NCBI GenBank assembly: GCA_964019135.1 | Contig: OZ025248.1 | Coordinates: 11,043,574 to 11,107,573 of the forward strand | DNA length: 64,000 bases | Origin: Arenicola marina | Lineage: Eukaryota; Annelida; Polychaeta; Arenicolidae | Direction of reading: 5' to 3' | Shown here: positions 10,896-59,600 of the stretch, one piece after another | Position numbering within the stretch: position 1 is the stretch's first letter | Layout of the letters: the number at the start of each line of letters is the position of its first letter | Position numbers and translations under genes: made by a program | Notes under the pieces: generated by a model | Database searches by the model: none | Seen by the model: the letters and a program-made list of their open reading frames with translations, nothing else | What the model was told of the DNA's origin: nothing

Positions 10896-10925
10896 GGCTA
10901 TCCTGTAACACATAAACAAACAAAA
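10896..10925 (-). promoter_or_regulatory. 3' splice site just before the STEAP-like start codon
   Basis: On the minus strand a T-rich tract (tttgtttatgtgttacag) ends in CAG, then GATAGCC and the ATG. This implies a 5' UTR intron, with the promoter and first exon somewhere beyond 10.9 kb. The first exon was not identified. Confidence 0.6.
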
Positions 10926-16320: not shown

Positions 16321-17600
16321 GGAGAACATGGGTCTGCCAAGAGAGTGTCGGAAGAGAAGGATTATGAAATGGGAGTGCGCCAGGAGCGGACACGGAGCAA
16401 ATGGAAGTGCCAGGAGCGAACACGGAGCGAATGAAAGTGCCAGGAGCGGACACGGAGCAAATGAAAGTGTCAGGAGCGGACACGGAGCAAATGGACGTGC
16501 CAGGAGCGGACACGGAGCAAATGGAAGTGCCAGAAGCGGACACGGAGCGAATGTAAATGCCACGAACGGACACGGAGCGAATGAAAGTGCCAGGAGCGGA
16601 CACGGAGCAAATGGAAATGTCAGGAGCGAACAAGGAGCAAATGAAAGTGCCAGGAGCGGACACGGAGCAAATGGAAGTGCCAGGAGCGGACACGGGTCGA
16701 ATGAAAGTGCCAGGAGCAGACACGGAGCAAATGGAAGTGCCAGGAGCGGACACGGAGCAAATGGAAGTGCCAGGAGCAAATACGGAGCAAATGGAAGTGC
16801 CAGGAGCGGACACGGAGCGAATGGAAGTGCCAGGAGCGGATACGGAGCAAATGGAAGTGCCAGGAGCGGACACGGAGCGAATGGAAGTGCCAGGAGCGGA
16901 CACGGAGCAAATGGAAGCGCCAGGAGCGGACATGGAGCAAATGGAAGTGCCAGGAGCGGATACGGAGCAAATGGAAGTGCCAGGAGCGGACACGGAGCGA
17001 ATGAAAGTGCCAGGAGCGGATACGGAGCAAATGGAAGTGCCAGGAGCGGACACGGAGCGAATGGAAGTGCCAGGAGCGGACACGGAGCGAATGGAAGTGC
17101 CAGGAGCGGATATGGAGCAAATGGAAGTGCCAGGAGCGGATACGGAGCAAATGGAAGTGCCAGGAGCGGACACGGAGCAAATAGAAATGCCACGAGCGGA
17201 CACGGAGCGAATGAAAGTGCCAGGAGCGGACACGGAGCGAATGGAAGTGCCAGGAGCGGTTACGGAGCAAATGGAAGTGCCAGGAGCGGACACAGAGCAA
17301 ATGGAAGTGCCAGGAGCGGATACGGAGCAAATGGAAGTGCCAGGAGCGGACACGGAGCGAATGGAAGTGCCAGGAGCGGACACGGAGCAAATGGAAATGT
17401 CAGGAGCGGACACGGAGCAAATGGAAGTGCCAGGAGAGGATAATGAGGGAAAGGGAGTGTCAGGAGAGGAAAGTGTGTGAATGGGAGTGTCAAGAAAAGA
17501 TAATGAGGAAATGGAAGTATAGCAGCTAAGAGAGGACAAGCAAGGAATGGAAATGCCAGAAGATCCAGAGGGAATGAGTGCCAGAATATGAGTGTCAGGA
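16321..17600. repeat. 30-bp minisatellite with decayed edges
   Basis: Core 16381-17430 is 35 units of 30 bp with substitutions only and no length change. The consensus starts caggagcggacacggagcaa. Units on both sides (16321-16380 and 17431-17520) keep the 30-bp register but are strongly diverged, and beyond that the register fades. The unit has no stop in several frames, so long open frames appear on both strands. I see no start context, splice sites or known domain that would make this a gene. Confidence 0.92.
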
Positions 17601-24645: not shown

Positions 24646-24823
24646 AATTGACCCAATTTACCTGACCTCTGCCCTTACGTCAGATTATCACATGACCACC
24701 TATCCTCTACTTCCACGCCGACAGCCGTGCTGAACGCACGCACCAATAAACATAAGCCAACATGTCACGACTGCTTTGTCAAGTCTATCTCCTGGCACTC
24801 GTTCAACACACCAGAATATAACA
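24646..24823 (+). repeat. 5' LTR of the Ty3/gypsy element
   Basis: Aligns with the right-hand LTR from ttgacccaatttacctgacc to the end agaatataaca. The presumed primer-binding site (tggtggcagcgcacag) follows immediately. Confidence 0.8.
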
Positions 24824-25068
24824 TGGTGGCAGCGCACAGAGACAAACACACGTCTCAAACGAAGAGAAGAACTCCAAGACACCCAGCAAGCCAAGGCCGC
24901 GTCAAGTTGACACCCCTTTATGCCGGACGAGTCCAAAGAGCTGTCATAACTTCACCACGTGTTCCAAGCTTCGAAGCCGGCATAACAGGACAACACATGG
25001 TCATTGCGGAGCCGTCAATAGGTGAATATCAGTGTTTCTCACTATCTATACGTATATGAACTATCAAC

Positions 25069-29580: not shown

Positions 29581-29815
29581 TGTTATATTATGAAGCTCAA
29601 ATGTAATTGGTTGAAATCCTTTATTAACTTGACCCAATTTACCTGACCTCTGCCCTTACGTCAGATTATCACATGACTTCCTATCCTCTGTATCTTGGTC
29701 ACTTCCACGCCGGCAGCCGTGCTGAACGCACGCACCAATAAACATAAGCCAACATGTCACGACTGCTTTGTCAAGTCTATCTCCTGGCACTCGTTCAACA
29801 CACCAGAATATAACA
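29581..29815 (+). repeat. 3' LTR of the Ty3/gypsy element
   Basis: Starts tgttatatta just after the polypurine run and ends aatataaca, giving the usual TG..CA ends with a 9-bp terminal inverted match. It contains caccaataaacataagcc, a likely polyadenylation signal. Confidence 0.88.
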
Positions 29816-35000: not shown

Positions 35001-35382
35001 TTGATTAAGATTAAAAATAAAACTGTTATATCAGGCTGAACTGGCAATGTCTGGCTATACATGTAGTGGCAGCAATGTCCATGCAAACATTGTTCATTCT
35101 TTAAAAGTGCTTTATTGCCTTGAACTTTTAAACTTTTTATGCAGCAGTTTTATTTCATAGTTACTATATACACAGGTATTTACCATATGTTTTACTTTGT
35201 TTTTATGTCACATCATACTTTGTGTGTGTAAATTACATTGCAGGCTGTTCCATGTATTGCACTTCAACCTCAAGTATTTGTATCAGCCAACCCATAGTAA
35301 ACATTTTCAGGGGGGGGGGGGTACTTTTCCAAGCCTGTGTACAGTCAGTTATTTTAGTGGGTGTATGTCCAATTCTCCCGTG
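32053..35382. other. AT-rich intergenic stretch before BLTP1
   Basis: No gene supported. Short repeats of (c/t)tatactatagtata type near 32770-32800 and a caaggtcaaggtcaca-like word near 34370-34390. The BLTP1 promoter and non-coding first exon may lie in this part, but no core promoter was recognised. Confidence 0.4.
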
Positions 35383-35636
35383 GCGGGCCTGATAGCTCAG
35401 TGGGTTAGAGCGCTCCCCTTGAGTGCTCTGGTCACCTGAGAGTCTAACGGCACATGGATCGGTGGTTTGAGCCCTGTTGTGGCCATGTCTGTGTGGTTGC
35501 AGGATAAAGATCCCATGTCCTTCTTCGCAAAGAGTAGAGGTTACCCCCGGAGACATGGCTCTTCTCCCTTCTCTCATTGACGCGATATGACCAAAAGTGG
35601 TTAAAGCGTCTTAAATATACAACCAATCAATCATCC
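35383..35636 (+). repeat. tRNA-derived SINE, copy 1
   Basis: The tRNA-like head has box A (tagctcagtgggttag) and box B-like (ggtttgagccc). A body follows (aggataaagatcccatgtcc ... gacatggctctt ... gatatgaccaaaagtgg), and the tail is a short aaccaatcaatc repeat rather than poly-A. A second copy lies at 37568-37830. It sits just upstream of the first coding exon of BLTP1. Not a functional tRNA: the anticodon arm does not fold like one and the copies are dispersed. Confidence 0.85.
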
Positions 35637-35688: not shown

Positions 35689-38600
35689 GGGATGCTTCAA
35701 GTGTCATGACCAGTCAGAAGACAACAGAAATGTAGCCTGGAAAGTTCAGGCAAAGGGATGTGATTGGCGGCTGTTGAATAATCGCTGCTTGATAAAGGTG
35801 TCAACATGGTGCAGTGGATGAATACTTATAACAATGAGAGTATCATTGATGTCATTCAGAAAGAGCTGCCACAGTCTACATTCGCATTGCTTTTGATCTC
35901 ATTGCTGCTGGCCATCGTATGGGTTGTCTACCTTACTTACTACAACTCACGAACCCTTGGTTTGATATTGACAGCCATTATCAACCGCTTTGTCAAGTAT
36001 GGACATGTCAAAGTTGGTAGGTATGCCTTTGGTATAATTCTACAATGTAGATCTTAGTTATGTTTCATTGCAAAAAAACTAGATTTTCGGAAAAAAAGCT
36101 ATTTACAAATGATTACTGGTAGCTGAGAATATCTTGCCCTGCATGACTGCTTCTGAACTTGGTCTGCAGTGTTACAATTAATTAGCCCTATACTATGTTT
36201 TATGTATCTGGGCATGAACTTTATATTTAGAGCTTTGCACTTTTATCTTTTGCAGGTTCCTTCAGCTTCTCTGTGCTGGCTGGTAAGATTATGTTCCGCG
36301 ATGTTCATCTGGTCACTGAGGACTACTCCCTGAGGATTCAGCTCGGACTGGCGATATTCAGATGGTGGAGACCCCTCACCAGCAAGGAAATTCATGAAGG
36401 TATGGTCAACTTGTCAATTGTCATCAGTTGTATCGCCATATTCTGCATTATGGATCTGTATGTAATTACCCCGGTAGATACTGTGAATTTTATAGAATGT
36501 TGTAAAATGACTATGGCTACTATGGAATACAAGTTTAGTATGCTTTGAGGCTTTATAACGGTTATAACATGTATTGCCTTTTGAATAGTTTTACATGAAC
36601 TGTTTTTATTACAGATTTATCACTGTCGGAAACTAGAGTGTCGGTGGAGTTAGACAGCTTTGAGCTTCACGTCTACAACCGATCAGCTAGCTATGCCAGG
36701 TTGGAAAAACTGTTTGGATTGAGTGAACTCATGCTTCCTCCTGAAATTAAGGAAGTGAGAAAGAAAAGGTGAGATTTTGAAGTTAGATTTGTTTTTTCCG
36801 TTGTACATAACGTTCAGTACCGAGTAGTTATTTTGCGTTCTACGTTAGAGGTATTAACGTGGTTGATATGACACAGAGCTGTTTGAGGGATTGAGGGTGG
36901 TAAGTCATAACGAGGGTGGGTTCATTGTACATCCAGATGCAGATAATATTGTGAACAGCGGTACAACAGGTTCCCAAACGCATTAGCATTTAAGATACAG
37001 ACACTTCTCATATGAACAGCACCGGTGTATCCTTATATTGTTATACGGGCACTCCTTATATAAACAGCACCGGTATATCCTTATATTGTTATACGGGCAC
37101 TCCTTATATAAACAGCACCGGTATATCCTTATATTGTTATGCGGGCACTTCTTATATAAACTGCACCGGTATATCCTTATATTGTTATACGGGCACTCCT
37201 TATATAAACAGCACCGGTATATCCTTATATTGTTATACGGGCACTCCTTATATAAACAGCACCGGTGTATCCTTATATTGTTATACGGGCACTCCTCATA
37301 TGAACAGCACCGGTATATCCTTTTATGGTTGTAATACATGGAGTTAGTTCTATCATGTTTTACAGCTTTGGAAGGAAAGCAAAAGAGAAAGACAAGAGTC
37401 CTACACAGAAGAGAGACAGTCGCTGGCAATGGAGAGATCTCGTTCCTGTCATCAAAGTGGAGATCTCGTCGGTGGGTTTACATTTGAGCCCCGACCCGAG
37501 GAATGACGGGCCGCCGGCGTCCTGTGGTCAATATATTGAAAGGACGTATTTACTTCTACTTTACATGGCGGCCGCCTCGATAGCTCAGTGGGTTAGAGCG
37601 CTCGCCTTGAGTGCTCTCACCACCTGAGAGTCTAACGATCGTGGATCGGTGGTTCGCGCCCTCCTGTGGCCGTGTTTATGTGGTCGCAGGATAAAGATCC
37701 CATGTCCTTCTTCGCAAAGAGTTTAGGTTACCCCCGGGGACATGGCTCCATTCTCCCTTCCTTCTCCCATTGACGCGATATGACCAAAAGTGGTTAAGCG
37801 TTCTGAATATACAACCAACGAACCAATCTACTTCACATCTTTTCAATCCCCGATTAAATAATTACGAATGTCAGTGAGCGAAAAAGTTGAAGCAACAAAA
37901 TGATCTTAATCTTTCCCGAGTGAAAAATATGAGCGATAAAACCAACTTAATACAGTAATCTCAGTGCTTATAGATAGATATATTGATAAAAGAATGTAGG
38001 GGGGTGGGTTTGCTGCTGAGGACATTTTGCCTTTGGGTTATAAAAATGGACTGGAAAATTATGGCTATGTAAACACATGGATGGCTAGGTATGTGAAATG
38101 TTCCGGAGTTTCTAATATTAATATTGTCAGCAACATGGTCACTCTATCCCAATCGATGTTGTCTTAACCTTGTATAGCAGTAACCAAACTAGACATAATG
38201 ATTTGCTGAGTAATGTTCAGAAACGGAATGCAATACTTCTCTAACTACCAGCGCAGCTTTAAATTACTGGACGGCTCTGTGCGTTATTAATCCATTACCA
38301 GTACTTCTTGCCCATGCTATGGATTTCTTAGCACTTGTGTAAAGGCAGATCTCACCTTCTCCCCCAATATTACAATACTATGTGTGTACGTGTACCGGTA
38401 ATCTAGCAGTCTGCATTGAAATTACTTCTTTTTCTCGCTTTTTCAGGGAAGAATAGCATTTGGAAATTACTTGGTTCCTACCACGGTATCTATCAACTTC
38501 GGGGATGCTAACTTTCTGTACACGACGAAAAAGGCTTCGACCTTGTCTGACCAGTTCATGCACGTGGTCAAGGCACGGGCGGACAACCTGAGGGTAGTCT

Positions 38601-41600
38601 TGGTGGAGAGCCCAAAATACAAGGGCCATCGCGATGAGTAAGTAGCTGATTAATTTATATATATCTCTTATAAGAAAACCAATTAGCGTTAATTATCATT
38701 ATCAGGAATAAAACGTTTTTTCATGTTTCTATGTTTAATAGTTGGCCTACACACTGATTAACGGAACAAGCTTCTGAACACTGATCCAAGAATATTGATC
38801 CGTTTTGTCTTCTTATCGACTTTCGATTGCCTCGATGTTAAATTGCTGCAAAGCGCTGGGTTATGTTTAAGGCAAGCTTTTCGTATTATTTCAGACCACC
38901 TCGATTCATGGGAGATGGATTTGTGGTGCTACAGAGTCAACACGTGCAAGTTTACTACTACCAAGACGAAGCAGGTATTGCCCGATAGAATGCATATGCC
39001 CCAACATGTACCATACATGCTTTCTTGTTTTTCTGCCATTGCAAAATAAAACCGCTGCATGTCTGGCACAAGGTGAATTAACTGGCCCTAATGTTCTCTA
39101 TTGGTGGTTTCAAAGTTCACTTGGATGATCGTGCCGTATTTTTAGTCTTTCACTAGTATATTACATATATAAGTAGGCCGACATGAATTTGTAGAACCAA
39201 AACAACTTGTGCAATTACTGGGCAAAGACTGAACATTTCTCTGTTGAAGACAATTGAGCGAGCCGGTCGTTCTTCCATGTAAGGGCGAACCATTGTTTCA
39301 GCATAGCTCACGTATTACTCACGCCTAACTTTTACTACAATAATGCATTTCCCGTCCCTTTTGTGTACCAAATCCCACTGAATAAACTTGTGTTATTCCA
39401 CCGCTGTTGTTAATTATTCTATATACTATTATTATCGAAGATATATATAAATGATATATTTGTGATTATTGGTATGTCCTATCCTATTTATGCAGGACTG
39501 GTCCCATATGAACCGGAGGTTGTACAGTTGGCCAATGGAGACATTCTGTATGTTAATCGCACTTGGCCGAGCTGGGGGATGGAAGTCAAGTGCTACAAGG
39601 CGACCGACATCAGCTATGGACCGTGGGCAGACAGACAAAGGTTCGTAATGTCGGATTTTTTTAAGTAGGTTAAAGTTCTCCCGTCCCCAGGAGTCTATTC
39701 CAGCTTCAATTCTCTTAAGTATGGCGTTGAATTTTAAATCTATTTTATGATATACACATATTTAACTTATAATATAGATAGCATTCTTCAGATGTAAATT
39801 ATGCATTAATGCATTAATAAGTCGACGCTACAAATGCTTTCTAAGAAGAGGCGAAACTTAACTGATATATACGTTATTTTGCAGAGAATTCCTGTGGAAG
39901 TTCTTTTTTCCACAAGACTACAAGACTATGGAGCCCACGAGGCTTCCAGAGCCCGGAGAGGTGCGGATACCCAAGAACTTTGACTTCAAGATGAGCATAC
40001 AGAATGACGCCACGCTGGATATTCTGTTCACCAAGAACAAGGTTTGTTCTCCCCAATCTGTTCACCAAGAACAAGGTTTGTTCTCCCCAGTCTGTTCACC
40101 AGGAACAAGGTTTGTTCTCCCCAGTCTGTTCACCAAGAACGAGGTTTGTTCTCTCCAGTCTGTTCACCAAGAACGAGGTTTGTTCTCCCCAGTCTGTTCA
40201 CCAAGAACAAGGTTTGTTCTCCCCAGTCTGTTCACCAAGAACAAGGTTTTTTCTCCCCAGTCTGTTCACCGAGAACAAGGTTTGTTCTCCCCAGTCTGTT
40301 CACCAAGAACGAGGTTTGTTCTCCCCAGTCTGTTCAACAAGGACAAGGTTTGTTCTCCCCAATCTGTTCAACCGGAAAATGGTTTGTTCTCCCCAGTCTG
40401 TTCAACAAGAACGAGGTTTGTTCTCCCCAATCTGTTCAACCGGAAAAAGGTTTGTTCTCCCCAGTCTGTTCACCAAGAACAAGGTTTGTTCTCCCCGGTC
40501 TGTTCACCAAGAACAAGGTTTGTTCTCCCCAATCTGTTCACCAAGAACAAGGTTTGTTCTCCCCAGTCTGTTCAACAAGAACGAGGTTTGTTCTCCCCAG
40601 TCTGTTCACCAAGAACAAGGTTTGTTCTCCCCAGTCTGTTCACCAAGAACAAGGTTTGTTCTCTCCAGTCTGTTCACCAAGAACAAGGTTTGTTCTCCCC
40701 AGTCTGTTCACCAAGAACGAGGTTTGTTCTGCCCGGTCTGTTCACCAAGAACACGGTTTGTCCTCCCCAGTCTGTTCACCAAGAACAAGGTTTGTTCTCC
40801 CCAGTCTGTTCACCAAGAACAAGGTTTGTTCTCTCCAGTCTGTTCACCAAGAACGAGGTTTGTTCTCCCCAGTCTGTTCACCAAGAACGAGGTTTGTTCT
40901 CCCCAATCTGTTCACCAAGAACGAGGTTTGTTCTCCCCAGTCTGTTCACCAAGAACAAGCTTTGTTCTCTCCAGTCTGTTCACCAAGAACGAGGTTTGTT
41001 CTCCCTAGTCTGTTCACCAAGAACAAGGTTTGTTCTCCCCAGTCTGTTCACCAAGAACGAGGTTTGTTCTCCCCAATCTGTTCACCAAGAACAAGGTTTG
41101 TTCTCCCCAGTCTGTTCACCAAGAACGAGGTTTGTTCTCCCCAATCTGTTCACCAAGAACGAGGTTTGTTCTCCCCAGTCTGTTCGCCAGGAACGAGGTT
41201 TGTTCTCCCCAGTCTGTTCACCAAGAACAAGGTTTGTTCTCCCCAATCTGTTCACCAAGAACAAGGTTTGTTCTCCCCAATCTGTTCACCAGGAACGAGG
41301 TTTGTTCTCTCCAGTCTGTTCACCAAGAACGAGGTTTGTTCTCCCCAATCTGTTCACCAAGAACGAGGTTTGTTCTCCCCAGTCTGTTCACCAAGAACAA
41401 GGTTTGTTCTCTCCAGTCTGTTCACCAAGAACGAGGTTTGTTCTCCCCAGTCTGTTCACCAAGAACAAGGTTTGTTCTCCCCAGTCTGTTCACCAAGAAC
41501 GAGGTTTGTTCTCCCCGATCTGTTCACCAAGAACAAGGTTTGTTCTCTCCAGTCTGTTCACCAAGAACGAGGTTTGTTCTCCCCAGTCTGTTCACCAAGA

Positions 41601-44600
41601 ACAAGGTTTGTTCTCCCCAGTCTGTTCACCAAGAACGAGGTTTGTTCTCCCCAATCTGTTCACCAAGAACAAGGTTTGTTCTCCCCAGTCTGTTCACCAA
41701 GAACGAGGTTTGTTCTCCCCAATCTGTTCACCAAGAACGAGGTTTGTTCTCCCCAGTCTGTTCACCAGGAACGAGGTTTGTTCTCCCCAGTCTGTTCACC
41801 AAGAACACGGTTTGTTCTCTCCAGTCTGTTCACCAAGAACGAGGTTTGTTCTCCCCAGTCTGTTCACCAGGAACGAGGTTTGTTCTCCCCAGTCTGTTCA
41901 CCAGGAACGAGGTTTGTTCTCCCCAGTCTGTTCACCAAGAACACGGTTTGTCCTCCCCAGTCTGTTCACCAAGAACAAGGTTTGTTCTCTCCAGTCTGTT
42001 CACCAAGAACGAGGTTTGTTCTCTCCAGTCTGTTCACCAAGAACAAGGTTTGTTCTCCCCAATCTGTTCACCAAGAACAAGGTTTGTTCTCTCCAGTCTG
42101 TTCACCAAGAACGAGGTTTGTTCTCTCCAGTCTGTTCACCAAGAACGAGGTTTGTTCTCTCCAGTCTGTTCACCAAGAACGAGGTTTGTTCTCCCCAGTC
42201 TGTTCACCAAGAACAAGGTTTGTTCTCCCCAGTCTGTTCACCAGGAACGAGGTTTGTTCTCCCCAATCTGTTCACCAAGAACAAGGTTTGTTCTCCCCAG
42301 TCTGTTCACCAAGAACGAGGTTTGTTCTCCCCAATCTGTTCACCAAGAACGAGGTTTGTTCTCCCCAGTCTGTTCACCAGGAACGAGGTTTGTTCTCCCC
42401 AGTCTGTTCACCAAGAACACGGTTTGTTCTCTCCAGTCTGTTCACCAAGAACGAGGTTTGTTCTCCCCAGTCTGTTCACCAGGAACGAGGTTTGTTCTCT
42501 CCAGTCTGTTCACCAAGAACACGGTTTGTCCTCCCCAGTCTGTTCACCAAGAACGAGGTTTGTTCTCCCCAATCTGTTCACCAAGAACAAGGTTTGTTCT
42601 CCCCAGTCTGTTCACCAAGAACGAGGTTTGTTCTCCCCAATCTGTTCACCAAGAACGAGGTTGTTCTCCCCAGTCTGTTCACCAAGAACAAGGTTTGTTC
42701 TCCCCAATCTGTTCACCAAGAACAAGGTTTGTTCTCCCCAGTCTGTTCACCAAGAACAAGGTTTGTTCTCCCCAGTCTGTTCACCAAGAACGAGGTTTGT
42801 TCTCTCCAGTCTGTTCACCAAGAACGAGGTTTGTTCTCCCCAGTCTGTTCACCAAGAACAAGGTTTGTTCTCCCCAATCTGTTCACCAAGAACAAGGTTT
42901 GTTCTCCCCAGTCTGTTCACCAAGAACCAGGTTTGTTCTCCCCAGTCTGTTCACCAAGAACGAGGTTTGTTCTCTCCAGTCTGTTCACCAAGAACGAGGT
43001 TTGTTCTCCCCAGTCTGTTCACCAAGAACAAGGTTTGTTCTCCCCAATCTGTTCACCAAGAACAAGGTTTGTTCTCCCCAGTCTGTTCACCAAGAACAAG
43101 GTTTGTTCTCCCCAGTCTGTTCACCAAGAACGAGGTTTGTTCTCTCCAGTCTGTTCACCAAGAACGAGGTTTGTTCTCCCCAGTCTGTTCACCAAGAACA
43201 AGGTTTGTTCTCCCCAATCTGTTCACCAAGAACAAGGTTTGTTCTCCCCAGTCTGTTCACCAAGAACGAGGTTTGTTCTCCCCAATCTGTTCACCAAGAA
43301 CAAGGTTTGTTCTCCCCAGTCTGTTCACCAAGAACAAGGTTTGTTCTCCCCAGTCTGTTCACCAAGAACGAGGTTTGTTCTCCCCAATCTGTTCACCAAG
43401 AACGAGGTTTGTTCTCCCCAGTCTGTTCACCAAGAACGAGGTTTGTTCTCCCCAGTCTGTTCACCAAGAACAAGCTTTGTTCTCCCCAGTCTGTTTACCA
43501 AGAACAAGGTTTGTTCTCCCCGGTCTGTTCACCAAGAACAAGGTTTGTTCTCCCCGGTCTGTTCACCAAGAACAAGGTTTGTTCTCCCCAGTCTGTTTAC
43601 CAAGAACAAGGTTTGTTCTCCCCGGTCTGTTTACCAAGAACAAGGTTTGTTCTCCCCGGTCTGTTCACCAAGAACAAGGTTTGTTCTCCCCGGTCTGTTC
43701 ACCAAGAACAAGGTTTGTTCTCCCCAATCTGTTCACCAGGAACGAGGTTTGTTCTCTCCAGTCTGTTCACCAAGAACGAGGTTTGTTCTCCCCAATCTGT
43801 TCACCAAGAACGAGGTTTGTTCTCCCCAGTCTGTTCACCAAGAACAAGGTTTGTTCTCTCCAGTCTGTTCACCAAGAACGAGGTTTGTTCTCCCCAGTCT
43901 GTTCACCAAGAACAAGGTTTGTTCTCCCCAGTCTGTTCACCAAGAACGAGGTTTGTTCTCCCCGATCTGTTCACCAAGAACAAGGTTTGTTCTCTCCAGT
44001 CTGTTCACCAAGAACGAGGTTTGTTCTCCCCAGTCTGTTCACCAAGAACAAGGTTTGTTCTCCCCAGTCTGTTCACCAAGAACGAGGTTTGTTCTCCCCA
44101 ATCTGTTCACCAAGAACAAGGTTTGTTCTCCCCAGTCTGTTCACCAAGAACGAGGTTTGTTCTCCCCAATCTGTTCACCAAGAACGAGGTTTGTTCTCCC
44201 CAGTCTGTTCACCAGGAACGAGGTTTGTTCTCCCCAGTCTGTTCACCAAGAACACGGTTTGTTCTCTCCAGTCTGTTCACCAAGAACGAGGTTTGTTCTC
44301 CCCAGTCTGTTCACCAGGAACGAGGTTTGTTCTCCCCAGTCTGTTCACCAAGAACGAGGTTTGTTCTCCCCAGTCTGTTCACCAAGAACACGGTTTGTCC
44401 TCCCCAGTCTGTTCACCAAGAACAAGGTTTGTTCTCTCCAGTCTGTTCACCAAGAACGAGGTTTGTTCTCTCCAGTCTGTTCACCAAGAACAAGGTTTGT
44501 TCTCCCCAATCTGTTCACCAAGAACAAGGTTTGTTCTCTCCAGTCTGTTCACCAAGAACGAGGTTTGTTCTCTCCAGTCTGTTCACCAAGAACGAGGTTT

Positions 44601-47600
44601 GTTCTCTCCAGTCTGTTCACCAAGAACGAGGTTTGTTCTCTCCAGTCTGTTCACCAAGAACGAGGTTTGTTCTCCCCAGTCTGTTCACCAAGAACAAGGT
44701 TTGTTCTCCCCAGTCTGTTCACCAGGAACGAGGTTTGTTCTCCCCAATCTGTTCACCAAGAACAAGGTTTGTTCTCCCCAGTCTGTTCACCAAGAACGAG
44801 GTTTGTTCTCCCCAATCTGTTCACCAAGAACGAGGTTTGTTCTCCCCAGTCTGTTCACCAGGAACGAGGTTTGTTCTCCCCAGTCTGTTCACCAAGAACA
44901 CGGTTTGTTCTCTCCAGTCTGTTCACCAAGAACGAGGTTTGTTCTCCCCAGTCTGTTCACCAGGAACGAGGTTTGTTCTCTCCAGTCTGTTCACCAAGAA
45001 CACGGTTTGTCCTCCCCAGTCTGTTCACCAAGAACGAGGTTTGTTCTCCCCAATCTGTTCACCAAGAACAAGGTTTGTTCTCCCCAGTCTGTTCACCAAG
45101 AACGAGGTTTGTTCTCCCCAATCTGTTCACCAAGAACGAGGTTGTTCTCCCCAGTCTGTTCACCAAGAACAAGGTTTGTTCTCCCCAATCTGTTCACCAA
45201 GAACAAGGTTTGTTCTCCCCAGTCTGTTCACCAAGAACAAGGTTTGTTCTCCCCAGTCTGTTCACCAAGAACGAGGTTTGTTCTCTCCAGTCTGTTCACC
45301 AAGAACGAGGTTTGTTCTCCCCAGTCTGTTCACCAAGAACAAGGTTTGTTCTCCCCAATCTGTTCACCAAGAACAAGGTTTGTTCTCCCCAGTCTGTTCA
45401 CCAAGAACCAGGTTTGTTCTCCCCAGTCTGTTCACCAAGAACGAGGTTTGTTCTCTCCAGTCTGTTCACCAAGAACGAGGTTTGTTCTCCCCAGTCTGTT
45501 CACCAAGAACAAGGTTTGTTCTCCCCAATCTGTTCACCAAGAACAAGGTTTGTTCTCCCCAGTCTGTTCACCAAGAACAAGGTTTGTTCTCCCCAGTCTG
45601 TTCACCAAGATCGAGGTTTGTTCTCTCCAGTCTGTTCACCAAGAACGAGGTTTGTTCTCCCCAGTCTGTTCACCAAGAACAAGGTTTGTTCTCCCCAATC
45701 TGTTCACCAAGAACAAGGTTTGTTCTCCCCAGTCTGTTCACCAAGAACGAGGTTTGTTCTCCCCAATCTGTTCACCAAGAACAAGGTTTGTTCTCCCCAG
45801 TCTGTTCACCAAGAACAAGGTTTGTTCTCCCCAGTCTGTTCACCAAGAACGAGGTTTGTTCTCCCCAATCTGTTCACCAAGAACGAGGTTTGTTCTCCCC
45901 AGTCTGTTCACCAAGAACGAGGTTTGTTCTCCCCAGTCTGTTCACCAAGAACAAGGTTTGTTCTCCCCAGTCTGTTTACCAAGAACAAGGTTTGTTCTCC
46001 CCGGTCTGTTCACCAAGAACAAGGTTTGTTCTCCCCGGTCTGTTCACCAAGAACAAGGTTTGTTCTCCCCAGTCTGTTTACCAAGAACAAGGTTTGTTCT
46101 CCCCGGTCTGTTTACCAAGAACAAGGTTTGTTCTCCCCGGTCTGTTCACCAAGAACAAGGTTTGTTCTCCCCGGTCTGTTCACCAAGAACAAGGTTTGTT
46201 CTCCCCAGTCTGTTCACCAGGAACAACATCTGTTCTTGTCGTAAGGGGCAGCAAACCGATCTTCAGTATTTATACCGGCATAAATGTACTTTACCCTATT
46301 CAACCTTTACTCGAGTATTGATGGCGTAGTCATATGTAACTTGCTTGCTCTAGTGTTGCCGTAGAATGCTGAGTCATTGATCCTTACGTGTGAAGTCATT
46401 GTGTCTCGGCTTGACCAAGTGATGTATTACTGTCCCAGGAGACGCAGGCGATCCACATGATCTGCAAGAAGGGGTCGTACCTGGACTTCAACGTACCCTG
46501 GATTACCGAGGAGCTTGGCTACGTCACCAAGATCAACATGCAGATGATGCACCTGGATGCGACGACCAGCTTGGCCTTCCGGTCGCTGCTCGACTGCGAG
46601 ACGCTGGAGGTACGTCACTCGGGGGGGGGGGTTGGGGGGCGGGGGGGGGGTATATATAACTATGTCACCAAAGCCAAGGAAGCATAATGATCATTTATAT
46701 TTACAAACCTTAAAATATATCTGCCTGTATATGAAAGTTTTTTCGTTAAGCATCTTGCAAAAGAAGAACCTGAATATGAACATGACGTTGATATTAGTTT
46801 GGCCTTCGTATTGCATAAACACCGCTATTTACTGTTGCTCAGGTTGACGTGTTGGTGAAGTACCCGCCGCACTGGAACGACCTGCAGGACTGGCGGATCG
46901 ACGTGCGGGCGAGCAAGGCCTCGGCCAACCTCATCTACCACCACAAACACTTCTTCGTGGGTCAGTCACCCAGCATGGCCAGTACTGACACTGTATTGAC
47001 ATGGTGTACTGACACTGTATTGACATGGTGTACTGACACTGTATTGACATGGTGTACTGACACTGTATTGACATGGTGTACTGACACTGTATTGACATGG
47101 TGTACTGACACTGTATTGACATGGTGTACTGACACTGTATTGACATGGTGTACTGACACTGTATTGACATGGTGTACTGACACTGTATTGACATGGTGTG
47201 CTGGCACTGTATTGACATGGTGTACTGGCACTGTATTGACATGGTGTACTGACACTGTATTGACATGGTGTACTGACACTGTATTGACATGGTGTACTGA
47301 CACTGTATTGACATGGTGTACTGACACTGTATTGACACTTGGTATTGATATTGTGTATTGATATTGAGTATTGACATGTATTGATACTATATTGACATGG
47401 TGTACTGACACTGCATTAACATGGTGTGCTGACACTGTATTGACATGATGTACTGACACTGTATTGACATGGTGTGCTGGCACTGTATTGACATGGTGTA
47501 CTGACACTGTATTGACATGGTGTACTGACACTGTATTGACATGGTGTACTGACACTGTATTGACATGGTGTGCTGGCACTGTATTGACATGGTGTGCTGG

Positions 47601-50600
47601 CACTGTATTGACATGGTGTGCTGGCACTGTATTGACATGGTGTACTGACACTGTATTGACATAGTGTACTGACACTGTATTGACATGGTGTACTGACACT
47701 GTATTGACATGGAGTACTGACACTGTATTGACATTGTGTACTGGCACTGTATTGACATGGTGTACTGACACTGTATTGACATGGTGTACTGACACTGTAT
47801 TGACACTTGGTATTGATATTGTGTATTGATATTGAGTATTGACATGTATTGATACTATATTGACATGGTGTACTGACACTGCATTAACATGGTGTGCTGA
47901 CACTGTATTGACATGATGTACTGACACTGTATTGACATGGTGTGCTGGCACTGTATTGACATGGTGTACTGACACTGTATTGACATGGTGTACTGACACT
48001 GTATTGACATGATGTACTGACACTGTATTGACATGGTGTGCTGGCACTGTATTGACATTGTGTACTGACACTGTATTGACATGGTGTGCTGGCACTGTAT
48101 TGACATGGTGTACTGACACTGTATTGACATGGTGTACTGACACTGTATTGACATGATGTACTGACACTGTATTGACATGGTGTGCTGGCACTGTATTGAC
48201 ATTGTGTACTGACACTGTATTGACATGGTGTGCTGGCACTGTATTGACATGATGTACTGACACTATTGACATGGTGTACTGACACTGTATTGACATGGTA
48301 TACTGACACTGTATTGACATGGTATGCTGGCACTGTATTGACATGGTGTACTGACACTGTATTGACATGGTGTACTGACACTATATAGACATGATGTACT
48401 GCCACTGTATTGACATGGTGTACTGACACTGTATTGACATGGTGTACTGACACTGTATTTATATGGTGTACTGACACTGTATTGACATGGTGTACTGACA
48501 CTGTATTGACATGGCGTACTGACACTGTTGACATGGTGTATTGACACTGTATTGACATGGTGTGCTGACTGTATTGACACTCTGGGATGTTACCTCTCTC
48601 TGGCTGGAGTGTTGACGTCACGCATTTAAACGTTTCCTCTTATGCAATATGGTCCAACATGCCATCCCGCTGACCATAGAAACTTGAACAAGGGCATTGA
48701 ATATTATTGATTAATTATAATTGATTAAACTTCTGGTACTGTAAAACCATATGGTTAGTGTGAAAACCTTGATGGGCATGTTCTCATGTGTTACGCCGTA
48801 TCTGGATTGTTTGTACGCCGTGTGTATTGTTTTGTCTTGTAGAAATGATTGATGACTGGTCGAGCAAGGTCCCGCCGGATATCTTCCACTTTGTGCCTTA
48901 CACCCTCAAGTTGAACGTCATCATGAATGAATTCGAACTGTTGACGTTAGCTAATGAGTGGAACTGGATAGACTGCTTCGGTCAGACACCAGAAAACGGT
49001 GGGTTTAATGTTATATACCACATAGAAATAATACTCCTAGTAACAGGTGGGTTTAATGTTATATACCACATAGAAATAATACTCCTAGTAACAGGTGGGT
49101 TTAATGTTATACACCACATAGAAATAATACTCCTAGTAACAGGTGGGTTTAATGTTATATACCACATAGAAATAATACTCCTAGTAACAGGTGGGTTTAA
49201 TGTTATACACCACATAGAAATAATACTCCTAGTAACAGGTGGGTTTAATGTTATATACCACATAGAAATAATACTCCTAGTAACAGGTGGGTTTAATGTT
49301 CTACACCACATAGAAATAATACTCCTAGTAACAGGTGGGTTTAATGTTATACACCACATAGAAATAATACTCCTAGTAACAGGTGGGTTTAATGTTATAC
49401 ACCACATAGAAATAATACTCCTAGTAACAGGTGGGTTTAATGTTATATACCACATAGAAATAATACTCCTAGTAACAGGTGGGTTTAATGTTATACACCA
49501 CATAGAAATAATACTCCTAGTAACAGGTGGGTTTAATGTTATATACCACATAGAAATAATACTCCTAGTAACAGGTGGGTTTAATGTTATACACCACATA
49601 GAAATAATACTCCTAGTAACAGGTGGGTTTAATGTTATACACCACATAGAAATAATACTCCTAGTAACAGGTGGGTTTAATGTTATACACCACATAGAAA
49701 TAATACTCCTAGTAACAGGTGGGTTTAATGTTATATACCACATAGAAATAATACTCCTAGTAACAGGTGGGTTTAATGTTATACACCACATAGAAATAAT
49801 ACTCCTAGTAACAGGTGGGTTTAATGTTATACACCACATAGAAATAATACTCCTAGTAACAGGTGGGTTTAATGTTATACACCACATAGAAATAATACTC
49901 CTAGTAACAGGTGGGTTTAATGTTATACACCACATAGAAATAATACTCCTAGTAACAGGTGGGTTTAATGTTATATACCACATAGAAATAATACTCCTAG
50001 TAACAGGTGGGTTTAATGTTATACACCACATAGAAATAATACTCCTAGTAACAGGTGGGTTTAATGTTATATACCACATAGAAATAATACTCCTAGTAAC
50101 AGGTGGGTTTAATGTTATACACCACATAGAAATAATACTCCTAGTAACAGGTGGGTTTAATGTTATACACCACATAGAAATAATACTCCTAGTAGCAGGT
50201 GGGTTTAATGTTATACACCAAATAGAAATAATACTCCTAGTAACAGGTGGGTTTAATGTTATACACCACATAGAAATAATACTCCTAGTAACAGGTGGGT
50301 TTAATGTTATACACCACATAGAAATAATACTCCTAGTAACAGGTGGGTTTAATGTTATATACCACATAGAAATAATACTCCTAGTAACAGGTGGGTTTAA
50401 TGTTCTACACCACATAGAAATAATACTCCTAGTAACAGGTGGGTTTAATGTTATACACCACATAGAAATAATACTCCTAGTAACAGGTGGGTTTAATGTT
50501 ATACACCACATAGAAATAATACTCCTAGTAACAGGTGGGTTTAATGTTATATACCACATAGAAATAATACTCCTAGTAACAGGTGGGTTTAATGTTATAC

Positions 50601-53600
50601 ACCACATAGAAATAATACTCCTAGTAACAGGTGGGTTTAATGTTATATACCACATAGAAATAATACTCCTAGTAACAGGTGGGTTTAATGTTATACACCA
50701 CATAGAAATAATACTCCTAGTAACAGGTGGGTTTAATGTTATACACCACATAGAAATAATACTCCTAGTAACAGGTGGGTTTAATGTTATACACCACATA
50801 GAAATAATACTCCTAGTAACAGGTGGGTTTAATGTTATATACCACATAGAAATAATACTCCTAGTAACAGGTGGGTTTAATGTTATACACCACATAGAAA
50901 TAATACTCCTAGTAACAGGTGGGTTTAATGTTATACACCACATAGAAATAATACTCCTAGTAACAGGTGGGTTTAATGTTATACACCACATAGAAATAAT
51001 ACTCCTAGTAACAGGTGGGTTTAATGTTATACACCACATAGAAATAATACTCCTAGTAACAGGTGGGTTTAATGTTATATACCACATAGAAATAATACTC
51101 CTAGTAACAGGTGGGTTTAATGTTATACACCACATAGAAATAATACTCCTAGTAACAGGTGGGTTTAATGTTATATACCACATAGAAATAATACTCCTAG
51201 TAACAGGTGGGTTTAATGTTATACACCACATAGAAATAATACTCCTAGTAACAGGTGGGTTTAATGTTATACACCACATAGAAATAATACTCCTAGTAAC
51301 AGGTGGGTTTAATGTTATACACCACATAGAAATAATACTCCTAGTAACAGGTGGGTTTAATGTTATATACCACATAGAAATAATACTCCTAGTAACAGGT
51401 GGGTTTAATGTTATACACCACATAGATATAATACTCCTAGTAACAGGTGGGTTTAATGTTATACACCACATAGAAATAATACTCCTAGTAACAGGTGGGT
51501 TTAATGTTATATACCACATAGAAATAATACTCCTAGTAACAGGTGGGTTTAATGTTATACACCACATAGAAATAATACTCCTAGTAACAGGTGGGTTTAA
51601 TGTTATACACCACATAGAAATAATACTCCTAGTAACAGGTGGGTTTAATGTTATACACCACATAGAAATAATACTCCTAGTAACAGGTGGGTTTAATGTT
51701 ATACACCACATAGAAATAATACTCCTAGTAACAGGTGGGTTTAATGTTATACACCACATAGAAATAATACTCCTAGTAACAGGTGGGTTTAATGTTATAT
51801 ACCACATAGAAATAATACTCCTAGTAACAGGTGGGTTTAATGTTATACACCACAAAGAAATAATACTCCTAGTAACAGGTAGGTTTAATGTTATACACCA
51901 CATAGAAATAATACTCCTAGTAACAGGTGGGTTTAATGTTATATACCACATAGAAATAATACTCCTAGTAACAGGTGGGTTTAATGTTATATACCACATA
52001 GAAATAATACTCCTAGTAACAGGTAGGTTTAATGTTATACACCACATAGAAATAATACTCCTAGTAACAGGTGGGTTTAATGTTATACACCACATAGAAA
52101 TAATACTCCTAGTAACAGGTGGGTTTAATGTTATATACCACATAGAAATAATACTCCTAGTAACAGGTGGGTTTAATGTTATACACCACATAGAAATAAT
52201 ACTCCTAGTAACAGGTGGGTTTAATGTTATACACCACATAGAAATAATACTCCTAGTAACAGGTGGGTTTAATGTTATACACCACATAGAAATAATACTC
52301 CTAGTAACAGGTGGGTTTAATGTTATATACCACATAGAAATAATACTCCTAGTAACAGGTGGGTTTAATGTTATACACCACATAGAAATAATACTCCTAG
52401 TAACAGGTGGGTTTAATGTTATACACCACATAGAAATAATACTCCTAGTAACAGGTGGGTTTAATGTTATACACCACATAGAAATAATACTCCTAGTAAC
52501 AGGTGGGTTTAATGTTATATACCACATAGAAATAATACTCCTAGTAACAGGTGGGTTTAATGTTATACACCACATAGAAATAATACTCCTAGTAACAGGT
52601 GGGTTTAATGTTATACACCACATAGAAATAATACTCCTAGTAACAGGTGGGTTTAATGTTATATACCACATAGAAATAATACTCCTAGTAACAGGTGGGT
52701 TTAATGTTATACACCACATAGAAATAATACTCCTAGTAACAGGTGGGTTTAATGTTATATACCACATAGAAATAATACTCCTAGTAACAGGTGGGTTTAA
52801 TGTTATATACCACATAGAAATAATACTCCTAGTAACAGGAACCACAGCTAAAAGACGAATATGAGTTCTATGGCACGAGCAAATTAGTTTGTCATGGGGG
52901 AGTGGTAACCAAATGAAGTATTTTTTTTGTGTTTCTTACTCTTAGATAGCATGTAGCATCTTTGCTTTCAAATAATGAATATCTTCGGATGTATGTTGCC
53001 TCGTACGTATTGCCATATGGTATCAATCACATGTATGTTTGAACTGTAGCATCAGCTTTGCAGAACCCAAGGTTCTGATAATATCTTATTTTTTTTATTT
53101 GCCGTACGTTCACAACATATTTTAAACTTGTATATATATTTTACGGTATCCCACTTTGGTGGGTCATGAATGCCATAATTAAGATGTCCCGCAGACGACC
53201 CGTGTGTGACGCCGTGACCTCTGTTTGTCCTTGCAGCCCACGTGGCCGTGTGCGGTGACACGTTTGACCTCTCCTTCACGCTGCCCTTCGATCAGTTCCT
53301 GCCACCCACCGTACCGCTGAAGATCTTCATCAGGGTGAGCGTAGATTGCGTGCTGTTGTTACACCGATATAGTCCTGACCTATTGTCAGTAGTCACATGG
53401 GGCCATAATGTGGCGACGTCGGTAAAGGATTTACTTAGCACTTGTTTAGCCGATGAAATCGCAAACACGGAGATAATTATGATCGCGTCTTGCGATTATA
53501 ATTACATACTTATCTATTGCGTGATTTACCGCTGATCAAAGGATGGTAAGGTGTGAAAGTGATATGCCAGTTCAAGTTCTTTATCTTTGAATATTACTTA

Positions 53601-56600
53601 TAATAATATGTATTTACGATCGATACACTGAGGATGGCGCATTCATTCTCTGCCTCAAGAGACACTTAATTACTCGGCGTTCGTGGTATTTGTTCACCTT
53701 TAATGGATAAATATATCTATGACCATACTGATGACTAAAACAAAACTCAAATCGACGAATTTGGATACTGATTTTGCCGATATTTTGCTTCACTTTCCAG
53801 GGTGAGAGTGTGGACGTGCGACTGTACCTGCCCGAGACTAACACCAGCAGACACGTGGTTCTGGCGCTGGCCGAGAACATGCGCATTGTGGACCGGGATG
53901 GCACCGTCCTCCTCGAGCCCTTCAGCGGCCGGACCATCAAGCAGTGGCGGCGGCTCACACAGAAAAGGTGGGTCCGTCCAGACCTGCATTACGGCATTCA
54001 GCGAAGATCTGTTCCTTCATTTGGCTGTCTTTATGGGCAGTTCACGTGCTCCTCTGGTGGCTTCCGCCGGAAATGGAACTGAGATGTTAACTATATGTAA
54101 AATATGGAGGCAGGAAAAGATTGGTGGACAATTGCGGAATAAAATAGCTGCATGTGTATGTATCTTGGTTGGAATATTATTCTTTGTACCGTGTACCACG
54201 AGGAAGACATTACTGGCAGAGTAATTATCTTTGCATAGTGAAACTGTACAATTGTACAACTAGTATGTATCTGAGGGTTCCCTCGGTCACGGAAAATCGT
54301 TGAAAAATCCCTTAAATTTTTTTTTTACAAAGTCATGCAAAGTGGCCTCGTAAGGTGAGGGTGGGGGGGGGGGGTGTAAAAATTTGGAAATGGTACAATA
54401 TTTCCCTTTATTCTGTACTGTACTGCATATTCCATATTTTTCATAGGGACACTTATGTATGGCTTTTTTCCATAGGGTGACTTATCCATGCTATGGACCA
54501 ATATCCTTTTATTCTCGTTATGACGTTAAGTAACTGGTTTATTTAGCTCCAACTATGTCACCGACTTTATCTCCGGTTGGAAGATCAGTTTATAATTACG
54601 GTCATGGCTGTTTTTGTTTTGTTTTGTTTTTTTGTTTATGTACCTTGGCTGGATGCCAGCCTACAGTACGAAATAAACTGCAACTCATAGATTCTTATTC
54701 TTCCAGGGGTGGTTTGTCCGGGGTAAGCCCCAGGTGTGCATCACCTTAGCACCAACGCATTCATCCATACGGTCGTTTTCATGAAATATCCTTGGACCCT
54801 CCCCTTGCAGCCAGGGTTGGGTGGACTGCTTCAACACCCCGATGGTGGGCCTGAGCATCAACTACACGTACCACCCGATGCCCCTGCTGCCAGAGCGCCA
54901 CGCCTCCCAGAGCGCCAGGCTGATCGCGGGGCTCACCACCCCCGAGGCCGAGGAACACCTCCTCATCCCCCTGCGCCTGGACTCCCAGCAGCCCCACCCC
55001 GGGGCCGGCCAGGGGGCGGGGGCGGGGGCGGCGGCGGGGGAAGGGGCGCCGGGCGGTGGGGAGGACGGGGATTCCTTCGACCCCACTTTCATGGAGGCTG
55101 ATCAGCTGCAGTTCGAGCTTGAAGTGGGCCCTTCGGTGCTGTGCTTGTATGGATCCCTCTTCCGCAACCTGTGGCACCTCAAGGTGGGTCATCTGTGATC
55201 AGTCGCTCGACGGACTCGCACAAAGCTTAATGGCTTTCACCAAAAAGGAAAAGCGGCGAATCCACCGTCTTTTTGGTAGATTGGACGAATGTCATGCGTG
55301 TCCCGGTTATGTTCTTAGGACCTAACATTCCGTCTACGCAGGATATGTTGTCCAGGTTAAAGTTCGCTCCCGTGACTGCATACTTGTGGGGGGGTAGGGG
55401 GGCTAAGTGCAGGTACGGTTTGTAAGTTGCAGTTTATCCCACAAGATTCTTGGTGCCTTATAAACACAGCGTTGACATCACCGGTAGACAGTTTGCGGTG
55501 TATAATATACTGTACGTGGATAATACATCAAAAGATGGATACCTTTATACAATGTAGCGACTGAGAGCGTTCGCCGTTGTGGACCGTTTGTCTTATTGTA
55601 TTGTCAATAAATATTAATGCTGAGCGGCTTATCATGCTACAAGGCTTGTCGTTGCTTGGTGACGCAGGAGAACTACGTGGGGGAGGACCAGCGCTACACA
55701 GACTACGAGGAGGTCTTCTCCACCAACGACAAGGGCTCCAACTTCGAGCATATCTTCACCAGTCAGCGGAGTGACCGACCCTTCGACTGTCGCCGCTACC
55801 GACCCATGGAGATCAAGGTCAAGGTCAACCTGCACGAGATACACGCCCACATGGTCAAGGTGAGTGCAGATAGTGGGTAGCTCGCAGATAGTGCCGTGTG
55901 TTACCAATGTGGGCCTCGCCAATAGTGGGAGAACACGCACAGTCGAGAGCTAACTTTGGCGGTTTCGTCGCCTTCTCTCATTGTCCCAGAGCCTCGGTGG
56001 CGAACACATGGGCTAAAGATCGGGCTGTGTGTCCCTATGTAGCCTAGAACAACAGCGCGTCCATCCATACCAATAATAATAATAAGGAATTATATTATAT
56101 TATATATTCTTTAATCATACTAATTGGACTATCACGCATTAAACCTAATACTATTATTATTTTACGCCTGCCATTCACCTTTGTTGATTCCTGACGACTC
56201 CCTCTTGACATTCATCCCCCCATCCATTCATCCCCCCATCCATTCACCCACCCACCCATTCATCCCCTCATCCAGTCATCCCCCCAGCCATTCATCCCCT
56301 CACCCATTCATCCCCCCCATCCATTCATCCCCCCAGCCATTCATCCCCCCACCCATTCATCCCCCCCAGCCATTCATCCCCCACCCATTCATCCCCCCCA
56401 CCCATTCATCCCCCCATCAGTTCATCCAGTCATCCCCCATCCATTCATCCCCTCATCCAGTCATCCCCCATCCATTCATCCCCCCACCCATTCATCCCCC
56501 CATCCATTCATCCCCCCATCCTTTCATCCCCCCATCCATTCATCCCCTCATCCATCCTTCTACCCATCCATCCATTCATCCCCCCATCCATTCATCCAGT

Positions 56601-59600
56601 CATCCCCCCACCCATTCATCCCGCCATCCATTCATCCAGTCATCCCCCCACCCATTCATCCCGCCATCCATTCATCCCCCACCCATTCATCCAGTCATCC
56701 CCCCACCCGTTCATCCCCCCCACCCATTCTTCCCCCCATCAGTTCATCCATTCATGCCCCCACCCATTCATCCCGCCATCCATTCATCCCCCCGCCCATT
56801 CATGCCCCCATCCATTCATCCCCCCACTCATTCATCCCCCCATCAGTTCATCCAGTCATCCCCCCACCCATTCATCCCCCCATCAGTTCATCCAGTCATC
56901 CCCCCACCCATTCATCCCCCCATCCATTCATCCCCCCATCCATTCATCCCCCCATCCATTCATCCCCCCATCCATTCATGCCCCCACCCATTCATCCCCC
57001 CACCCATTCATCCCCCCATCCATTCATCCCCTCATCCATTCATGCCCCCATCCATTCATCCCCCATCCATTCATCCCCCCATCCATTCATCCCCCCATCC
57101 ATTCATCCCCCCATCCATTCATCCCCCCATCCATTCATCCCCCCATCCATTCATCCCCCCATCCATTCATGCCCCCATCCATTCATCCCCCACCCATTCA
57201 TGCCCCCACTCATTCATCTCCCACCCATTCATCCCCCCACCCATTCATCCCCCCATCCATTCATCCCCCATCCATTCATGCCCCCACCCATTCATGCCCC
57301 CACTCATTCATCCCCTCATCCATCCTTCTACCCATCCATCCATTCATCCCCCCATCCATTCATCCCCCCCACCCATTCATCCCCTCATCCATTCATGCCC
57401 CCACCCATTCATCCCCCCATCCATTCATCCCCCCCACTCATTCATCCCCTCATCCATTCATGCCCCCACCCATTCATCCCGCCATCCATTCATCCCCCAC
57501 CCATTCATGCCCCCACCCATTCATGCCCCCACTCATTCATCTCCCACCCATTCATCCCCCCACCCATTCATCCCCCCATCCATTCATCCCCCATCCATTC
57601 ATGCCCCCACCCATTCATGCCCCCACTCATTCATCCCCTCATCCATCCTTCTACCCATCCATCCATTCATCCCCCCATCCATTCATCCCCCCCACCCATT
57701 CATCCCCTCATCCATTCATGCCCCCACCCATTCATCCCCCCATCCATTCATCCCCCCCACTCATTCATCCCCTCATCCATTCATCCCCCCATCCATTCAT
57801 CCCCCATCCATTCATCCCCCACCCATTCATGCCCCCACTCATTCATGCCCCCACTCATTCATCCCCCACCCATTCATCCCCCCACCCATTCATCCCCCCA
57901 TTCATTCATCCCCCATCCATTCATGCCCCCACTCATTCATCCCCTCATCCATCCTTCTACCCATCCATCCATTCATCTCCCCACCCATTCATCCCCCCAT
58001 CCATTCATGCCCCCACTCATTCATCCCCTCATCCATCCTTCTACCCATCCATCCATTCATCCCCCCATCCATTCATCCCCCCCACCCATTCATCCCCTCA
58101 TCCATTCATGCCCCCACCCATTTATCCCCCCATCCATTCATCCCCCCACCCATTCATCCCCCCACCCATTCATCCCCCCATCCATTCATCCCCCATCCAT
58201 TCATGCCCCCACCCATTCATGCCCCCACTCATTCATCCCCCCATCCATTCATGCCCCCACCCATTCATCCCGCCATCCATTCATCCCCCATCCATTCATC
58301 CCCCCCACCCATTCATCCCCCCATCCATTCATGCCCCCACCCATTCATGCCCCCACCCATTCATGCCCCCACTCATTCATCCCCTCATCCATCCTTCTAC
58401 CCATCCATCCATTCATCCCCCCATCCATTCATCCCCCCACCCATTCATCCCCTCATCCATTCATGCCCCCACCCATTCATCCCCCACCCATTCATCCCCC
58501 CATCCATTCATCCCCCGACCATTCATGCCCCCACTCATTCATCCCCTCATCCATTCATGCCCCCATCCATTCATCCCCCACCCATTCATCCCCCCATCCA
58601 TTCATCCCCCACCCATTCATGCCCCCACTCATTCATCCCCTCATCCATCCTTCTACCCATCCATCCATTCATCTCCCCACCCATTCATCCCCCCATCCAT
58701 TCATCCCCCCATCCATTCATACCCCCACCCATTCATCCCCCCATCCATTCATCCCCCCACTCATTCATCCCCTCATCCATCCTTCTACCCATCCATCCAT
58801 TCATCCCCTCATCCATTCATCCCCCCACCCATTCATGCCCCCACTCATTCATCCCCTCATCCATCCTTCTACCCATCCATCCATTCATCCCCCCATCCAT
58901 TCATCCCCCCACCCATTCATGCCCCCACTCATTCATCCCCTCATCCATCCTTCTACCCATCCATCCATTCATCCCCCCACCCATTCATCCCCCCACCCAT
59001 TCATCCCCCCATCCATTCATCCCCCACCCATTCATGCCCCCACTCATTCATCCCCTCATCCATCCTTCTACCCATCCATCCATTCATCCCCCCATCCATT
59101 CATCCCCCCACCCATTCATCCCCCCATCCATTCATCCCCCACCCATTCATCCCCATCCATTCATGCCCCCACCCATTCATGCCCCCACTCATTCATCCCC
59201 CCATCCATTCATGCCCCCACTCATTCATCCCCTCATCCATTCATCCCACCATCCATTCATGCCCCCACCCATTCATCCCCCCATCCATTCATCCCCCACC
59301 CATTCATGCCCCCACTCATTCATCCCCTCATCCATCCTTCTACCCATCCATCCATTCATCCCCCCATCCATTCATCCCCCCACCCATTCATCCCCCCACC
59401 CATTCATCCCCCCGTCCATTCATGCCCCCATCCATTCATCCCCCCATCCATTCATCCCCCCCACCCATTCATCCCCCCATCCATTCATCCCCCACCCATT
59501 CATGCCCCCACTCATTCATCCCCTCATCCATCCTTCTACCCATCCATCCATTCATCCCCCCATCCATTCATCCCCCCACCCGTTCATCCCCCCATCCATT

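Follow-up and report, generated by a model that had tools for sequence, protein, structure and literature searches.

Minisatellites whose units span an exon-intron boundary have been described in lancelets, where they are known as “mirages” (PMC3087553, PMC3902484). The reported cases include Adh3 of Branchiostoma floridae and B. lanceolatum (Canestro et al. 2002, cited in PMC3087553 and PMC3902484), the globin genes BflGb6 and BflGb9 (PMC3087553), and PGBD5, along with troponin C as cited there (PMC3902484). Such arrays can lie at either boundary, on the donor or the acceptor side (PMC3902484), and cephalochordates are the sole group named in the available text of the two mirage papers. A very large array is described here from the polychaete Arenicola marina, in a 64,000-nucleotide (nt) stretch of contig OZ025248.1 (assembly GCA_964019135.1, positions 11,043,574 to 11,107,573, forward strand), referred to below as the window. 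It is located in intron 8 of BLTP1 and contains 182 units of mostly 34 base pairs (bp), formed from the end of exon 8 and the beginning of intron 8; two further arrays cover splice junctions of the same gene.

Like the lancelet mirages, the BLTP1 arrays have units that span an exon-intron boundary and include copies of a splice site, with either the donor or the acceptor side amplified. Both sequence features that define a mirage are present in intron 8: the unit combines 18 exonic with 16 intronic nt, and the donor G/GT (the slash marks the junction) is kept in 180 of 182 units. The unit length falls within the 10 to 72 bp quoted for the Adh3 mirages. The copy numbers are 182, 80, and at least 35 in BLTP1, in contrast to 2 to 7 in the globin and PGBD5 mirages, those of PGBD5 being 2 × 60 or 7 × 60 bp and 3 × 108 or 6 × 108 bp in two assemblies (PMC3902484). 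Also unlike the lancelet mirages, as far as these are described in the available text, BLTP1 has three arrays in one gene, and the decoy donors in intron 11 keep the reading frame and are predicted to pair with U1 better than the authentic one. Lancelet mirages are reported to leave splicing undisturbed. By analogy, the intron 8 array appears to be a very large example of the published kind and not a new kind. It is probably a minisatellite that was seeded on the exon 8/intron 8 junction and is tolerated through exon definition.

Minisatellites at exon-intron boundaries, similar in this respect to the BLTP1 arrays, are also found among the internal tandem repeats of human segmental duplications, where splicing can be altered (PMC2812944). 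The human variable repeats, exonic ones included, average four 30-bp units (160 bp) and belong to recent paralogues; novel introns and alternative transcripts are reported for the segmental-duplication repeats (PMC2812944). In the potato RNA-dependent RNA polymerase gene, as in BLTP1, a duplicated segment crosses an intron-exon boundary; one duplication made a new intron there, whereas in BLTP1 an existing intron has been lengthened and no intron gain is seen (PMC4974935). Among annelids, earthworm metallothionein introns carry minisatellites, none of which is mentioned as spanning a boundary in the accessible part of the report (PMC12783039). A literature search by titles and the beginnings of abstracts, with thin coverage of subscription journals, returned, among the matches listed, no splice-junction array of comparable size.

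The donor-spanning array in intron 8

The gene and the parts of the array are located as follows.

35806 to 60508, plus strand: 5′ region of BLTP1, comprising 15 exons plus the edge of exon 16 in its first visible copy; Pfam PF20413
39885 to 40041, plus strand: BLTP1 coding exon 8 (157 nt), from the gene model and the LPD-3 alignment; its last 18 nt, CTGTTCACCAAGAACAAG at 40024 to 40041, are the exonic part of the unit
40042 to 46438, plus strand: intron 8 (6,397 nt), with the authentic donor AAG/GTTTGT at 40041/40042
40024 to 46209, plus strand: donor-spanning 34-bp array of 182 units, with a 36-unit head (40024 to 41247) followed by two tandem 2,481-bp blocks
46210 to 46240, plus strand: degenerate terminal unit, donor lost
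46439 to 46609, plus strand: BLTP1 coding exon 9, from the gene model and the LPD-3 alignment

Modelled from splice sites and frames, the 5′ part of BLTP1 has 16 exons and a single open frame of 834 residues. The predicted product matches the Pfam domain BLTP1_N (PF20413) with an E value of 4.7e-225, and the sole match in PDB is Caenorhabditis elegans LPD-3 (9cap; E value, 1.6e-78), in agreement with the gene name proposed in an initial annotation of the window. Exon 16 is visible only as array copies of its own edge, and the window ends within that array. The LPD-3 alignment is gapless at exon 8/9 (LFTKNK/ETQAIH) and at exon 11/12 (TPEN/AHVAVCG); because of this, the arrays of introns 8 and 11 are both placed within introns, with exon 9 resuming the conserved protein as initially proposed for the former. 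In this test, which is one of homology and not of RNA, LPD-3 has no gap at the site, and the repeat appears not to be retained in the mRNA and protein as it would be in a coding exon with a variable-number tandem repeat. Scans of the window for tRNAs and Rfam families gave no matches.

The frame of exon 8 is open across all 182 units, in an open reading frame (ORF) of 2,155 residues at 39862 to 46329, and within the array just one of the three forward frames is interrupted, once, near position 41009. The array might then be exonic and translated as a large repeat region, with the true donor beyond it, e.g., GTAAGG at 46241. However, this would place about 2,000 extra residues at a point where the LPD-3 alignment is gapless, and open frames are a weak argument, as by our estimate about one in five 34-bp units would be free of stops by chance. 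In the sister 48-bp array of intron 11, 7 of 7 distinct variants are non-synonymous, which gives no sign of selection or constraint at the protein level, though 7 is few. The exonic reading is highly improbable and was rejected on the LPD-3 alignment.

A unit-by-unit parse recognizes 182 units, all of them 34 bp long except for two of 33 bp, and Tandem Repeats Finder reports 182.5 copies of period 34 at 40023 to 46226 (94% matches; score, 10763). The consensus unit consists of the exonic part CTGTTCACCAAGAACAAG, the last 18 nt of exon 8 (19 nt if the T at 40023 is included), followed by the 16-nt intronic part GTTTGTTCTCCCCAGT. The 18 exonic nt match exon 8 exactly in 73 of 182 units, with its own copy counted, and the main variation among the 180 full-length units is at donor position −3 (93 A, 85 G, and 2 C). 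None of the 14-mers of the consensus unit is found outside the array on either strand of the window. Apart from the assembly caveat discussed below, the array is real: the roughly 182-fold amplification of the exon 8 edge with its donor, as initially described, is confirmed, while the acceptor half of that description was overstated.

According to that half, each unit has a pyrimidine tract ending in CAG, so that it reads as an acceptor, a 19-nt micro-exon, and a donor. The CAG is present in 129 of 182 units and absent in the other 53. Scored with a position weight matrix (PWM) built from no more than 15 BLTP1 acceptors, the first exon 16 copy being among them, the in-array acceptors have a median of −2.3, a level that is also reached by 159 of 437 AGs outside the arrays. 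The distance of 15 nt from the donor of a unit to its own CAG is too short for an intron. The acceptor and micro-exon reading thus appears weak, and decoy acceptors forming a working micro-exon ladder are a weak candidate in view of their background-level scores.

For the donors of the 180 full-length units, with the authentic one counted, U1 pairing is predicted at −6.0 or −6.1 in 165 cases; 13 donors pair more weakly and 2 more strongly (−7.5). In a PWM derived from the gene's own donors, the authentic exon 8 donor ranks fifth of 15 with a score of 8.7, which 80 units equal and 100 fail to reach. Only 5 of 522 other GTs outside the arrays in the gene region attain this score, and the array therefore holds many good decoys. 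Splicing at the 181 decoy positions (2 of them without GT) would keep the frame in 59 cases, whereas 122 products would hit a stop before the end of exon 10.

What sets the authentic donor apart is its position: it closes the shortest exon. In five human minigenes that each carried the same strong 5′ site twice under exon definition, only the upstream copy was reportedly used; among natural pairs of near-equal 5′ sites the upstream one is favoured in 60%, and the preference rises when the upstream intron is shorter than 250 nt and the downstream intron is longer (PMC9225289). The corresponding introns of BLTP1 are 244 nt (intron 7) and 6,397 nt (intron 8). Since the upstream donor won in the minigenes with two identical donors, 182 similar donors might by analogy not be a hard problem.

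Junction arrays in introns 11 and 15

Two other arrays of BLTP1 cover splice junctions.

48843 to 48998, plus strand: BLTP1 coding exon 11, donor ACG/GTGGGT, from the gene model and the LPD-3 alignment
48998 to 52839, plus strand: second junction array, 48 bp × 80, beginning at the last base of exon 11
60407 to 64000, plus strand: third junction array, acceptor type, about 101 bp × 35.6, running off the window end

The intron 11 array supplies 79 extra donors, 77 of the form CAG/GTGGGT and 2 CAG/GTAGGT, all of them in frame and stop-free through exon 13. The predicted U1 pairing is −8.6 for the authentic ACG/GTGGGT versus −11.4 and −11.8 for the two decoy forms, respectively. If decoys were used appreciably, BLTP1 would have families of isoforms; nonsense-mediated decay would remove most of the intron 8 products, and stable ones would be likeliest at intron 11. 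The in-frame positions in both introns and the U1 pairing in intron 11 are consistent with such use, as is a report that, in 86% of the natural events assessed, the stronger 5′ site prevailed (PMC9225289). However, the gene's own PWM scores the intron 11 donors nearly equally (9.2 for the authentic one, 9.1 to 9.3 for the decoys) and gives the decoys no real advantage, the insertions would hit a part of the protein that is conserved in the LPD-3 alignment, and lancelet mirages are, as noted, reported to be spliced normally. Appreciable decoy use thus has a small, though not negligible, probability. It is also unlikely, slightly more so, that the three arrays form a length-encoded splicing device, with measurable, copy-number-dependent decoy use in introns 8 and 11, somatic or inherited changes of length tuning the output of the gene, 16-residue repeats being inserted in frame at exon 11, and transcripts being lost to nonsense-mediated decay via introns 8 and 15.

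In intron 15, the repeated unit consists of 61 nt of the intron and the first 40 nt of exon 16, and in the window 33 acceptors, with CCAG preceding A[AG], are intact. A transcript spliced at any of these up to the 32nd would meet a stop in no more than 50 codons, and presumably only the last acceptor of the array can yield a full-length protein. Among the 30 full-length 101-bp units, the substitution rate is 0.015 in the exonic and 0.039 in the intronic part, with 9 of 40 and 15 of 61 variable sites, respectively; 5 units with 100 bp are excluded, and the comparison is not relied on, since variants that units share cannot be counted as independent.

One pre-mRNA thus contains three natural tests of splice-site choice: some 180 donors of similar strength in intron 8; 80 donors in intron 11, with the authentic one the weakest in predicted U1 pairing; and at least 33 acceptors in intron 15, with presumably a single productive one. 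The exon-proximity rule, as described for pairs of competing sites (PMC9225289), yields a prediction for all three introns, and the best use of the array is as a natural experiment in splice-site choice.

Three other arrays in BLTP1, at 36995 to 37330, 46982 to 48579, and 56209 to 60324, cross no junction. The second is a 24-bp array that starts 22 nt inside intron 10 and does not reach over the donor; the repeat table lists two pairs of rows at a spacing of 468 bp, suggestive of a longer repeat within it. The third is a C-rich, CATCC-type array of 4.1 kb in intron 15 with an extreme GC skew.

History and origin of the intron 8 array

Units 1 to 36 of the intron 8 array form its head, and units 37 to 109 and 110 to 182 form two adjoining blocks.

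41248 to 43728, plus strand: 73-unit block, copy 1; 4 mismatches and a compensating single-unit shift relative to copy 2, 99.8% identity over ungapped positions
43729 to 46209, plus strand: 73-unit block, copy 2, from direct alignment to copy 1

One-off variants are denser in the head, with 12 in 36 units versus 5 in 73 when one block is counted (Fisher p = 0.0012); a count that takes in both blocks (182 units; 12 of 14 variants in the head, p = 4.5e-8) is inflated by the block doubling. This pattern fits, without proving, growth and homogenization away from the exon, the exon-proximal end being older. Escape of edge units from homogenization, as expected of a mirage, would agree with the variant-rich head and with the degenerate last unit at the opposite edge, and less well with the similar mean differences from the consensus in head and blocks. 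For length instability between alleles or in soma, the block doubling in this one haplotype would be an indirect sign. That the exon edge preceded the array, as initially proposed, is most likely in view of the gapless LPD-3 alignment and, more weakly, of the variant-rich head. The original argument for this order was the presumed conservation of LFTKN in human BLTP1; LPD-3 shares just D-I-x-F in this stretch.

Two adjoining blocks of exactly 2,481 bp with such high identity could mean that the assembler inflated a shorter array. Nevertheless, the 4 mismatches and the offset single-unit insertion distinguish the blocks, the head of 36 units carries its own variants, and BLTP1 contains two further junction arrays, so that an array produced in this way is quite unlikely.

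For a minisatellite seeded on the junction and tolerated by the splicing machinery, the following course is proposed. A tandem duplication of 18 exonic and 16 intronic nt would have started the array, which would then have grown by unequal exchange or slippage and been carried along since it is spliced out. Exon 8 would be defined jointly with its upstream acceptor, so that the first donor, giving the 157-nt exon, beats decoys nearly all of which have equal or lower predicted strength; mis-splicing would add about 34n nt. In the likeliest scenario, the arrays arose by unequal exchange, and the exon-proximal site is chosen through exon definition. No function is proposed for the array itself. 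The initial duplication may have been aided by a hairpin at the junction: the authentic exon 8 donor lies on a 7-bp stem of unbroken Watson-Crick pairs around a GGT loop. A stem of at least 7 bp over the junction is seen at 1 of 15 authentic donors and at none of 497 GGT sites in positions 1 to 36000 (at 3% of the 497 if G-U pairs are allowed), and the hairpin is a possible seed for slippage.

Several points weigh against this account. By predicted U1 pairing (−6.0), the authentic exon 8 donor is the weakest of the gene's 15 donors, and in RNA structure prediction its unpaired probability is 0.133 versus an array median of 0.209 (174 units). Masking of the decoys by RNA structure was accordingly dropped as an explanation, the authentic donor being no more open than they are. 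In the minigenes, identical very weak donors led to skipping of larger exons, and among natural pairs with no filter for strength the downstream 5′ site was reported to be the more frequent choice in each of the four intron classes (PMC9225289). Despite its richness in one-off variants, the head has a mean difference from the consensus (1.42) similar to that of the blocks (1.25 and 1.24). The hairpin argument is post hoc, and membership in the lancelet phenomenon rests on resemblance. Location of 3 of 6 arrays on junctions has a P value of 0.07, which is not significant, under random placement with one unit per array in the collapsed gene, and for this reason no seeding preference is claimed; the six exclude short repeats at 55012 to 55052, inside exon 14, and a row of 34-bp period at 60245 to 60324. 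Finally, the figure of 182 depends on one doubling, as blocks that are 99.8% alike are within reach of assembler error; the true count could then be nearer 109.

The three arrays indicate that boundary minisatellites can attain kilobase size and recur within a single conserved gene, a point of relevance to models of how introns lengthen and are gained.

Other features of the window

The remainder of the window contains several protein-coding and repetitive elements. Exons of a protein kinase are found at 2161 to 5676; two of them match the tyrosine kinase family, and we take the kinase, by eye, to be a Met-like receptor. A minus-strand ORF of 500 residues at 9447 to 10949 contains F420_oxidored and Ferric_reduct domains and presumably represents a relative of the STEAP metalloreductases. 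At 16379 to 17440, there is a 30-bp array of 35 copies that is open in several frames on both strands. An uninterrupted reverse transcriptase-integrase ORF of 1,401 residues (25060 to 29265) is flanked by direct repeats at 24648 to 24823 and 29629 to 29815, which are 92.5% alike and may be long terminal repeats. A pair of interspersed repeats, 87% alike, is located at 35381 to 35626 and 37566 to 37818, the second of them in BLTP1 intron 4; their start looks tRNA-like by eye, yet ARAGORN gives no match to it.

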